This document shows, piece by piece, positions 23,228 through 37,564 of a stretch of 64,000 nt of DNA. The translations under genes and the position numbers were made by a program. Source of the stretch: Halorussus vallis (GTDB lineage Archaea; Halobacteriota; Halobacteria; Halobacteriales; Haladaptataceae). Each line of letters begins with the position of its first letter. Within the stretch, counting starts at the first letter, position 1. Where the stretch lies: NCBI RefSeq assembly GCF_024138165.1, contig NZ_CP100000.1, positions 1,612,001-1,676,000 on the forward strand. The letters are read 5' to 3'. A model generated the notes under the pieces. It saw nothing but the letters and a program-made list of their open reading frames with translations, made no database searches and was not told the DNA's origin.

Positions 23228-24334
23228 ATGACGAGGGACTTCCGGAACGACTCCGACGACGGAGAGCGCACGCCGACCGCGACCCGCCGCGCGATACTCT
23301 CGGCGGTCGGCGCCGGACTCGCGGCCGGCGCGACGGCGACGAGCGCGGGAGCGGAACGGCCGACCGCGAACGAGTACGTCCTCGAACAGGGGGACCGGTG
23401 CGTGCCCGTCCGGGCGTTCGACGGTGACAAACCCGTCGAAACCTTCTACGGCTACCACCTTCCGAAGCGGTACGCAATCGCAGCCAACGGCGCGATCACC
23501 GACCTGCGTTCGGACGCGTACTACGCGTCAGTCGGCACCGAGGCATTCCAGCGCCCGAACACGAGTATCGCGATGCTCTACCGGGGACCCGAGGGACTGA
23601 GCCTCGTCTTCGTCCACGGCGCGGTCGGCGAAAAGCAGACCGGCGGCGCGGTCTCCTTCGAGTTCTCGGGGCTCTCGGCCGACGGGGAGTGGGCCGTGAA
23701 AGACGACCTCTACCTGAACCCCGACACCGGGCGGCCGGCGTCGACGAACTACGACCGGTGGTCGACCGACGGGACGAGCCAGCGAATCGACTGGACGTGG
23801 GGCGCGAACGGAACCGACGGCGGGGCGTTCCGGGGCCTCGGCGACGACGTTGACGTGACCGTCGACCCGGCGTTCAACGAAGACGCCGCCCTCTACGGCG
23901 AACACTACGAGGGCGACGTCGAGCGCTGGCAGTTCCTCACGGGGTCGGCCGACGACCCCGAGCGGATTTCGCTCGCCATGGACGAGCCGATACGGATACG
24001 GGCCGGGAGTTGCGGGTCGAGCGGCGGTGGAGGTTCCAGTGGTGGCGACGGCGACAGTCGAGACCGCGACGAGGGAGCGGACCGCGAGAGCCACGAGGAG
24101 TCGGAGTCGGCGGACTCGGGCGAAGACCGGCAGGAGAAGCGAGAGCGAGAGGAAGACGAACGCGAGGAGAAAGGGGAACGGAACGAAGAGGAGCGAAACG
24201 AGGAAGGCGAGGACCACGGGAAGCACGAGGGGAACGGTCACGAGAGGGGGAAAGGAAGGGGTCACGAGAAGGGGAAAGGCAAGGGCCACAGCAAGAAGAG
24301 AGGAGAGGGTCACGAGAAGGAGAACGACGAGTGA
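23228..24334 (+). CDS. Tat-exported protein with long charged polar tail
   Basis: 368 residues. A Tat leader (TATRRAILSAVGAGLAAG) precedes a globular region of about 240 residues containing RPTANEYVLEQGDRCVPVRA, YGYHLPKRYAIAANG and WSTDGTSQRIDWTWGANGTD, with two lone Cys. From about residue 265 the chain becomes a Glu/Lys/Arg/Gly/His-rich tail (DRDEGADRESHEES and then GHEKGKGKGHSKKRGEG). The family is not recognised; homologues with the N-domain and Tat leader occur in haloarchaea. The tail is unusual for a haloarchaeal protein, as it is rich in Lys and His. Divergent from pgi. Confidence 0.75.
   Translation: MTRDFRNDSDDGERTPTATRRAILSAVGAGLAAGATATSAGAERPTANEYVLEQGDRCVPVRAFDGDKPVETFYGYHLPKRYAIAANGAITDLRSDAYYASVGTEAFQRPNTSIAMLYRGPEGLSLVFVHGAVGEKQTGGAVSFEFSGLSADGEWAVKDDLYLNPDTGRPASTNYDRWSTDGTSQRIDWTWGANGTDGGAFRGLGDDVDVTVDPAFNEDAALYGEHYEGDVERWQFLTGSADDPERISLAMDEPIRIRAGSCGSSGGGGSSGGDGDSRDRDEGADRESHEESESADSGEDRQEKREREEDEREEKGERNEEERNEEGEDHGKHEGNGHERGKGRGHEKGKGKGHSKKRGEGHEKENDE
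24110..24334 (+). other. Purine-dominated strand coding for the charged tail
   Basis: The plus strand here is almost entirely A and G, with runs such as GAGGAGAAAGGGGAACGG. Three overlapping frames stay open because stop codons are rare in such sequence. The strand bias reflects GAR, AAR and GGR codons in the tail. Confidence 0.6.
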
Positions 24335-29031: not shown

Positions 29032-29652
29032 TTATGCGCAGTATCCCCAGCAAGCGGGGTCGACACCGCAGGAGCAGTTCACGCAGCAATCGTTGCAGGC
29101 ACAGATCGTGTTCGGCTCACAGCTGTCAACCGGACAGCAGCTCGCGTCGCAACACGGGTCGCTACACGACCACATCGTCGTAACGTCGTCGAGGACTTCG
29201 GCTTTGGTTTCCTCGGGCGAGTTGACGAGCGCGTAACGCTCGCCAGTCTCTGGCCGGATACCGATCGTCAACATGCCTTCCGGCGTCTTTCGCCCGATGA
29301 CTATCTCCGGGGTTACGGTATCGTCGATCTTCTTCGCCACGACCTGTTCAGACTCCGTCTTCCCCTCCGGGTCGAGCGGGGATAAGGTGTCAACGCCGAG
29401 GTTGTCAACGTCTGCACTCTCCAGCAACCCTCGCTGTTGGAGTTCCTGCAGCATGTCGTCGTGCTCCGCGAGGACTCGGCGGACAGCGTCCGGATTGTCG
29501 TAGTCGGCGATGACGCGGTCGGCGTGAGCGCCTTCTAGCTCGGTCACCTCCGGTTGTCCTTTCGCAGCGGCGTTCACACCGACGCCGCCGAGAGTGGCGG
29601 CACCGGCCCCGAGACCCTTCAGGACGTTGCGTCGATTTATGTCGTTTCTCAT
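29032..29652 (-). CDS. Tat precursor with 14-cysteine C-terminal tail (A)
   Basis: 206 residues. Leader NRRNVLKGLGAGAATLGG is a Tat signal. Residues 35-160 form a cysteine-free domain (IADYDNPDAVRRVLAEHDDM, RGLLESADVDNLGV, LTIGIRPETGERYALVNS). The final 44 residues hold 14 Cys (163, 167, 168, 172, 173, 178, 184, 186, 189, 190, 193, 195, 201, 205), three of them CC doublets besides others. The domain layout recalls halocin C8 precursors, where a Tat leader and immunity domain precede a Cys-rich peptide. The paralogue at 30299 has the same plan and the same number of Cys. It is flanked by AT-rich DNA. The bacteriocin role is an inference. Confidence 0.8.
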   Translation of the reverse strand: MRNDINRRNVLKGLGAGAATLGGVGVNAAAKGQPEVTELEGAHADRVIADYDNPDAVRRVLAEHDDMLQELQQRGLLESADVDNLGVDTLSPLDPEGKTESEQVVAKKIDDTVTPEIVIGRKTPEGMLTIGIRPETGERYALVNSPEETKAEVLDDVTTMWSCSDPCCDASCCPVDSCEPNTICACNDCCVNCSCGVDPACWGYCA

Positions 29653-29822
29653 GGGACTGCGAGAACACCTAAGTTCGGTAAACACTTATTATTTTCTGTA
29701 TTTTTAGAGTTATAATATCCTGCGCTGGAGTTCCCGAATGAGTCACGGGAAGAGAATGTTCCTTGCGGAGGCATCCCGCGTTAACCCTCGCATTCTTATA
29801 GGATTGAGAACTATTCGCGGGT
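29653..29822. promoter_or_regulatory. AT-rich divergent promoter region of the Cys-rich island
   Basis: 170 bases between the leftward Cys-tail gene A and the rightward small membrane protein gene. The stretch TTATTATTTTCTGTATTTTTAG near 29687-29708 is far more AT-rich than the genome around it and can hold TATA boxes for either direction. TTCTTATAGG near 29793-29802 is about 25 nt before the ATG at 29823. Confidence 0.4.
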
Positions 29823-30101
29823 ATGTCCTCCGACGCGTCCGACGAGGAACTCGAACGAACCGTCCGACGGGCAATCCGCGCCGAACTGACCGTCCTCGGC
29901 GAGCGACTGTTCTGGACGTTCGTCGCGATTCTCGGCATCTTCGCCGGCCTAGGGCTGGCCGCCGGCGGTATCAACGCCGCCGACTGGAACTACGTCACGG
30001 CGGGGTTCGTCGTCTTCGGCGTGGCGCTGGTCGGCCTCGGAATCCGGACGCTGTTGCTGAAGTGGGGACCGCGGTCGCTCGGGCCGACCGCCGAGTGGTG
30101 A
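29823..30101 (+). CDS. Small two-helix membrane protein inside the Cys-rich island
   Basis: 92 residues. A charged N-terminus (DEELERTVRRAIRAE) is followed by two membrane helices (RLFWTFVAILGIFAGLGLAAGG and YVTAGFVVFGVALVGLGIRTLLL). GC-rich and acidic at the start, so typical of the host. Located between the two Cys-tail precursors. It could be unrelated, or an immunity or transport partner; nothing in the sequence decides. Confidence 0.65.
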   Translation: MSSDASDEELERTVRRAIRAELTVLGERLFWTFVAILGIFAGLGLAAGGINAADWNYVTAGFVVFGVALVGLGIRTLLLKWGPRSLGPTAEW

Positions 30102-30298
30102 TTAACGCGGCCATCATCGCGACGAGTCGGTCGAGATTCTCCTGCTCGACGACCTTCGGGGCTCACCGTCGTCACCATCTACGAGTGCTCGTTCGTTCTG
30201 ACTCGACCCTATCCCGCTCCATCAGTATCCGGCACGCTGCGTTTATTTCTAATTTCTAGACAAAATATTTAACTCCTATATGTTGTATATATGTCTTG
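30102..30298. promoter_or_regulatory. AT-rich promoter region of Cys-tail gene B
   Basis: The last 60 bases are AT-rich with AAAATATTTAACTCC at about 30263-30277 as a likely TATA box, about 30 nt before the ATG at 30299. An upstream TTG at 30296 is in frame and one codon earlier. Confidence 0.45.
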
Positions 30299-31066
30299 AT
30301 GTCTGGTGATAACGACCCAAGCCGATCCGAAGTGCTCAACAGTATCGTGAGTCGAAATCCCGACAGGCGGAGATTTCTGAAGACGTCGGGAGGGTTCGCC
30401 TCTGCGGCGGCAGTGGTTCCGGGACTATCGCGAGCGGCCGAAATGGCCGGACTGGAAGTAAAGCCCACCGTCGAACAACTGCGAGGGTTAGTAGCAGAAT
30501 ACAGTTCAGCGGATAGCGCTGAGGAAGCTTTCCGAGAGCACGGAACGGACATCCTCACCGTGCTGGCTAATCGTGGCCTAATCGAAAGTCAGGAGGTGTC
30601 AAGTTTAGGAATCGGCGAGGTGCTGACGGGAGCCGACGCTACCGAGATCGAAGAAGGAGTTATGGCTTTCTCGTATGTCCGCGGTAGTGAAGCAGTCGTC
30701 CAACTCCAGGTGGTGAAGCAACTCCCGAATTCGAAGCTCCGCATCGCTGTCGAACCCGAAAGCGACCGAAGCTTTGCGGTAGTAGAGTCGCAGACCGCCG
30801 ATGGTGAGGCGAAGTTCATATCGGCGGACGGTTCGGACGTGGGAACCGAAGATTTCTGCCAAACGAGCTGGAAGGGTGACTGTTACCACAAACCGAGCCA
30901 AGACTGTGCATGTACGGAAAATAGCCCGTGTGGGTGTTTCCAAGTGAAAGTCGAGTGCTGTCAGAGTGGTCGATGCACGATTCTCGACTGGCGATACGGG
31001 AACTGCGTGACTACTCCGAGCGGTTGTTGCAGTTCCACTCCGCAGTGTCCGGACATCTGTCAGTAG
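30299..31066 (+). CDS. Tat precursor with 14-cysteine C-terminal tail (B)
   Basis: 255 residues. Leader NPDRRRFLKTSGGFASAAAV is a Tat signal. The cysteine-free domain aligns with precursor A: AEYSSADSAEEAFREHGTDI and RGLIESQEVSSLGI against IADYDNPDAVRRVLAEHDDM and RGLLESADVDNLGV, then LRIAVEPESDRSFAVVES against LTIGIRPETGERYALVNS. The last 70 residues carry 14 Cys (187, 195, 203, 205, 211, 213, 220, 221, 226, 236, 243, 244, 250, 254), spaced differently from A. The plan fits a pre-pro-peptide of the halocin C8 type, but mature halocin C8 has 10 Cys. Codons are less GC-rich than in the neighbours, suggesting recent gain. Confidence 0.8.
   Translation: MSGDNDPSRSEVLNSIVSRNPDRRRFLKTSGGFASAAAVVPGLSRAAEMAGLEVKPTVEQLRGLVAEYSSADSAEEAFREHGTDILTVLANRGLIESQEVSSLGIGEVLTGADATEIEEGVMAFSYVRGSEAVVQLQVVKQLPNSKLRIAVEPESDRSFAVVESQTADGEAKFISADGSDVGTEDFCQTSWKGDCYHKPSQDCACTENSPCGCFQVKVECCQSGRCTILDWRYGNCVTTPSGCCSSTPQCPDICQ

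Positions 31067-34898: not shown

Positions 34899-34902
<4 letters not shown>
34795..34902 (+). pseudogene. tnpA: Remnant of IS200-like TnpA transposase
   Basis: The frame ends in [19 protein letters not shown] and [14 protein letters not shown], which matches the C-terminus of IS200/IS605 TnpA (W/S-R-S-Y-Y-V and the last helix RYIEEQ). Nothing upstream in the frame resembles the HUH catalytic part or its Tyr, so mobility would need a helper. It shares ATGA with the tnpB start. Confidence 0.7.

Positions 34903-37564
<2,662 letters not shown>

Follow-up and report, generated by a model that had tools for sequence, protein, structure and literature searches.

Introduction

To our knowledge, few antimicrobial or signalling peptides are known from archaea, and halocin C8 is the best studied of them. 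Its precursor, ProC8, is built from a Tat leader, a Cys-free domain and a Cys-rich tail (PMC11509114). Another precursor from haloarchaea, HmHapP (HFX_0892) of Haloferax mediterranei, is activated by a protease (PMC12893001). In peptide prenylation, Trp is the target of every trans-IDS-like prenyltransferase characterised so far, and PalQ requires this residue to be terminal (PMC13290415). Two adjacent, divergently oriented genes, A and B, were analysed here in a 64,000-nucleotide stretch of DNA (the window) and were found to belong to a large unannotated family of haloarchaeal precursors with a layout like that of halocin C8.

Results

Two precursors with 14 cysteines in the tail

The first-pass annotation had described two open reading frames, each with a Tat leader, a homologous Cys-free middle and a 14-Cys tail, and this was confirmed by ORF reading, BLASTP and a family profile (Table 1). 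The preferred start of A was the ATG at 29652, which gave 206 residues with the motif RRNVLKG; the alternative listed start, a GTG at 29685, added one more Cys, located in the leader. The ATG at 30299 was taken as the start of B, giving 255 residues with RRRFLKTSGG, and the position of the putative TATA-like box before it would fit a leaderless haloarchaeal mRNA. The leader of A scored 18.7 bits against TIGR01409, above the cut-off of 16.7 for a Tat-type signal, and matched Pfam TAT_signal with an E value of 1.2e-4, just under the cut-off of that model. The leader of B carried the RRRFLK motif but stayed under the curated cut-offs of both Pfam TAT_signal (E 0.006) and TIGR01409.

Table 1. Features of precursors A and B, in positions of the window
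Feature	Positions	Strand	Basis
Precursor A, 206 aa	29032..29652	-	ORF, family profile
A, Tat signal peptide, about residues 1-32 (RRNVLKG...)	29557..29652	-	TIGR01409, Pfam TAT_signal; signal end inferred
A, Cys-free middle (pro)domain, residues 33-162	29167..29556	-	Family profile, AlphaFold2
A, tail, 44 aa, 14 Cys, residues 163-206	29035..29166	-	Sequence
Precursor B, 255 aa	30299..31066	+	ORF, family profile
B, N-terminal extension and Tat signal, about residues 1-50 (DRRRFLKTSGG)	30299..30448	+	Sequence, Pfam TAT_signal
B, Cys-free middle (pro)domain, residues 51-186	30449..30856	+	Family profile, low-confidence model
B, tail, 69 aa, 14 Cys, residues 187-255	30857..31063	+	Sequence, two orthologs of another genus
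Putative TATA-like box AATATTTAAC, about 26 nt 5' of the B start	30264..30273	+	Inferred from sequence

The middles of A and B were homologous (BLASTP, 28% identity over 148 aa, E 2e-14), and each protein matched the family profile with E < 1e-34, both rows being included in that profile. All 14 cysteines of each protein lay in the tail, from C163 in A and from C187 in B. No convincing alignment was obtained between the two tails, which ended in WGYCA in A and DICQ in B. The GC content of A (0.615) and B (0.561) was lower than that of the neighbouring genes (0.68-0.72), and the GC3 values of 0.74 and 0.59, respectively, were also under those of the neighbours, as in horizontally moving accessory genes.

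The model of A, calculated with AlphaFold2 from a two-sequence alignment, had a mean pLDDT of 55.7, with values of 75-84 across most of residues 41-85 and 101-140. The middle was predicted to consist of helices leading into a β-meander of four strands; the tail was unresolved in the model. The four-strand element was predicted again for B, in a model of low confidence. A fold search of the PDB with the A model gave no significant match, and a sequence search of the PDB with the middle-domain profile gave none.

The secD-rnhB site

The interval between secD and rnhB was compared in 28 genomes of the Haladaptataceae, to which the genome with A and B belongs; rnhB was not found in the stretch of G003 and was only partial in G007. 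Besides the genome with both genes, A was located at this site in G014 and G012, where B was missing, and B was located there in G006 and G008, where A was missing. No family member was detected between secD and rnhB in the remaining genomes having both of these genes, and the intervals free of family members measured only about 100-300 bp in some cases and contained a 92-aa membrane ORF in others. The single occurrence of A or B in four genomes means that the two do not form an obligate pair; they are separate accessory genes sharing one site.

Between A and B, the window itself contained a 92-aa two-helix membrane ORF (29823-30101, + strand). This ORF was considered as an immunity gene and rejected, since many of the 28 genomes carried it there, mostly without A or B, as expected of a general neighbour. 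Elsewhere in the window, an ORF at 23228-24334 (+) encoded a Tat-like leader, a Gly/Ser linker and a long charged tail rich in Gly, His, Lys and Glu, and an ORF at 34899-36173 (+) looked, by eye, like a transposon protein of the TnpB/OrfB type and had a CPEC/CPCG pair resembling a zinc finger.

A family with variable cysteine-rich tails

The middle-domain profile was searched against 392 genomes that sample the order, and 62 of these, from 27 of 95 genera, had matches, with at most 11 per genome. In a phylum-wide sample of 295 genomes, just four had matches, every one of the same order. The genome of A and B had three members, the third of which, with 8 Cys, was located at C1:2694931-2695422. 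When 30 members were compared with Pfam and NCBIfam, nothing but Tat-signal models and isolated weak matches was returned, and the family is thus without a Pfam or NCBIfam model. Of 112 members, 109 had a Tat-type RRx-hydrophobic motif before the middle. The plasmid, phage and viral collections gave no match, a scan of the genome contig collection for the B group found nothing, and A and B were without match in PADLOC and PHROGs. The conserved leader and middle with a Cys-rich tail and many diversified paralogs, proposed from A and B alone, were supported by this search.

The middles were Cys-free in 108 of 117 family ORFs, and the tail cysteine numbers of these ORFs clustered at 8, 10, 12 and 14. 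Among the 112 members with at least four tail cysteines, whose counts ran from 4 to 22, 110 had an even number (binomial p = 1e-30), and 72 of 74 sequence clusters were without an odd-numbered member. The Cys-free middles and the even tail counts across the family are far beyond chance. A total of 94 distinct exact cysteine spacings were counted, and tails of 23-85 aa were attached to one middle fold. The count of 14 in both A and B was exact, as first reported, but their equality is not special, because two random family members have the same number with a probability of 0.18; orthologs of A at the same chromosomal site had 10 and 12 tail cysteines.

The tail of B was 58-60% identical to those of two orthologs in another genus, with all 14 cysteines kept, whereas the middle was 35-38% identical, which would be expected if the tail were the product. 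In many ortholog pairs, the tail was at least as conserved as the middle and had a lower pN/pS, although the opposite trend was observed in some pairs (L114/L116 and L071/L072). Several neighbouring or tandem paralogs had strongly diverged tails (L122, L205). By these comparisons, the tail looks like a product that is fixed inside a lineage and diversified among paralogs.

Neighbouring genes and a C-terminal Trp branch

No protease, transporter or modifying gene was found beside A or B, and none of the trans-IDS-like, HVO_1808-related, ABC-2 and CxxC membrane genes that recurred near other members was nearby. The HVO_1808-related gene, encoding a lipoprotein-like protein distantly related to HVO_1808, adjoined members at nine places in eight loci (L107, L109, L111, L115, L117, L131, L165 and L184); its HExxH motif was present in most copies and degenerate in some, and it is a possible dedicated maturation protease. 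An ABC-2 permease was close to members at seven loci (L134, L145, L147, L162, L172, L188 and L189; a raw count with no background rate), one being weakly similar to the lantibiotic-immunity permease MutG. Together with the trans-IDS-like gene, these neighbours are of the kinds that mature, export or guard peptide products. Four loci carried an unannotated membrane protein (L161:7677-8510, L188:4951-5823, L195:2835-4079 and L205:6132-7112) with RCLPC, RCIPC or RCSRC near the N-terminus and a Cys-rich end, which is possibly a thiol oxidase or an immunity protein.

The trans-IDS-like gene was located at seven family loci (L150, L152, L154, L161, L171, L201 and L203) in the genomes G260, G078, G107, G208, G263 and G352, at 4-220 bp from the precursor gene, in three cases with its start 4 bp downstream of that frame. 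The seven loci encoded nine precursors, and every one had Trp in the last two residues; seven had the ending GW or NW, one GWW and one GWL, whereas Trp was among the last three residues in only 7 of 103 other members (Fisher p = 2e-9). The enzyme profile matched polyprenyl diphosphate synthases in the PDB (best E 5e-7), and no match to Pfam was obtained. The first Asp-rich motif was kept, while the second was degenerate, with a Gln upstream. The enzyme occurred 11 times in the 392 genomes, of which seven adjoined family members; the other four copies were divergent and had no recognisable Cys-tail neighbour. A scan of the contig collection for the prenyltransferase gave two loci, one of them labelled Haloarchaeobius iranensis. 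In the genome of A and B, the enzyme had no homolog, and the C-terminal Trp of prenylated RiPPs was absent from both precursors. The adjoining gene and the terminal Trp in nine of nine precursors suggest prenylated archaeal peptides in this branch.

Discussion

Interpretation of A and B

The reading that we favour, with reasonable though far from full confidence, is that A and B are two independent Tat-exported precursors, the disulfide-bonded tail of each being released by proteolysis and acting outside the cell on other haloarchaea. Each protein would be exported separately via the Tat pathway. The Cys-free middle would serve as a prodomain, which may aid folding, hold the peptide inactive or shield the producing cell. 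The tail would fold with seven disulfides, and proteolysis near the first tail Cys would then free it to act on other haloarchaea as an antagonist or, with less likelihood, as a signal. For A and B, we infer the tail disulfides, the cleavage and the extracellular action from the pattern of the sequences. Release from the prodomain is assumed, and the cell might instead display the uncut protein on its surface.

In such a case, A and B would be full-length surface or secreted proteins whose tail is a stable, never-released disulfide knot for adhesion or binding. This agrees with the export of many Tat substrates as whole folded proteins and with a middle that appears conserved enough for a folded module, yet a single middle fold carries tails of 23-85 aa with 4-22 cysteines, and many ortholog pairs differ less in the tail than in the middle; we consider such a function unlikely, if worth keeping in mind. 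Tails of this kind could also belong to Cys-rich metal-binding or redox proteins resembling metallothioneins, given their very high Cys density and the near CxC/CC repeat of some of them (L075, with 22 cysteines). Even cysteine numbers in 110 of 112 members are expected of disulfide pairing and not of metal clusters, and the export into an oxidising space and the strong diversity of spacing also oppose a metal site, so the secreted metal or redox pair offered by the first-pass annotation is disfavoured and appears improbable.

The same annotation had considered a two-peptide system, that is, A and B as the components of one bacteriocin. The two genes are adjacent and divergent, and neighbouring members occur elsewhere (L117, L122, L128, L161 and L205), but A stands alone at the site in two genomes and B in two others, and the tails lack a convincing alignment, which leaves this proposal with very little probability. 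Signalling peptides, or pheromones, instead of antagonists are a lesser possibility that we would still weigh seriously, since the trans-IDS-like genes beside members with a C-terminal Trp recall the ComQ/ComX pheromone system of Bacillus; however, the recurring neighbours included no recognisable receptor kinase or response regulator, and A and B have no Trp end and their genome no such enzyme. The released extracellular peptide is retained as the reading of A and B, and antagonism is more likely than signalling as the role of its tail.

A broader proposal, which we put forward tentatively and hold at slightly less than even strength, is that the family represents an undescribed superfamily of Tat-exported archaeal precursors, one branch of which is prenylated at Trp by a dedicated trans-IDS-like enzyme; its products would be the first secreted, disulfide-rich peptides with a lipid group from archaea, for antagonism or cell-cell signalling. 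The Trp-prenyltransferase branch, if real, would extend prenyl-Trp peptide chemistry to archaea. With about one in six sampled haloarchaeal species carrying the family, more than 90 cysteine spacings and one prodomain type, the family offers a ready supply of candidate antimicrobial or signalling peptides, and it makes competition and communication among haloarchaea testable gene by gene. A 2019 survey of archaeal antimicrobial systems by Makarova, cited in PMC12352652, may include part of the family among its candidates, so priority is uncertain.

Comparison with known systems

The relation to halocin C8 was one of design. The first-pass annotation had suggested an archaeocin-like system and a profile comparison of the middle with ProC8/HalI; the overall layout of ProC8 was indeed shared, but neither a HalI middle nor a TIGR04449 tail was found. 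Homology of the middle to HalI was rejected in two runs, the second of which included controls: hhalign between the family middle and the HalI-type region (the N-terminal part of TIGR04449 ORFs) gave a probability of 1.3% (P 0.04), below the 4.9% of reversed HalI-type sequences, whereas within-family positives reached 99.8-99.9%. TIGR04449, the model of the HalC8 tail, did not match A or B at E values up to 10 and had no match in the genome carrying them. The similarity of A to one halocin C8 ORF, in G025 (E 0.002), was also rejected as a relation; this ORF has a HalI-type middle, and the weak match was attributed to the shared Tat leader. A full ProC8-type gene was present in G034:C4 (L040, L233), with a tail that agrees with what we take to be the mature halocin C8 sequence.

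The motif V[ST]xQ was located just N-terminal of the first tail Cys in 19 of 112 members, compared with 11 of 448 control windows, and in 8 of 27 halocin C8-type precursors (one of the eight doubtful), compared with 2 of 104 control windows. It is a minority motif in the family, and A and B have no exact copy, so its occurrence in both groups of precursors hints at a shared protease and nothing more.

Common to ProC8/HalI and the A/B family are the single gene, the Tat leader, the Cys-free N-terminal domain and the Cys-rich C-terminal peptide, and the TIGR04449 family shares with the A/B family the even Cys number, the haloarchaeal hosts and the multiple copies in some genomes. HalC8-type tails measure about 70-90 aa from the first Cys, mostly contain 10-12 cysteines and look hydrophobic, whereas the tails of the A/B family are polar and vary as described above, and those of A and B have 14 cysteines with other spacing than the 10-Cys halocin C8 peptide. 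HmHapP, compared by description only, is likewise a secreted haloarchaeal precursor activated by proteolysis, as proposed for A and B, but its active part is an N-terminal helical fragment instead of a Cys-rich C-terminal tail. The likeness to ComX/ComQ and PalQ-type Trp-prenylated peptides (PMC13290415) is limited to the one subgroup in which a trans-IDS-like gene adjoins precursors with Trp at or next to the C-terminus, and the archaeal precursors differ from both types in being Tat-exported and Cys-rich. The peptides of A and B are probably halocin-like in design without belonging to the halocin C8 family, as putative antagonists or signals.
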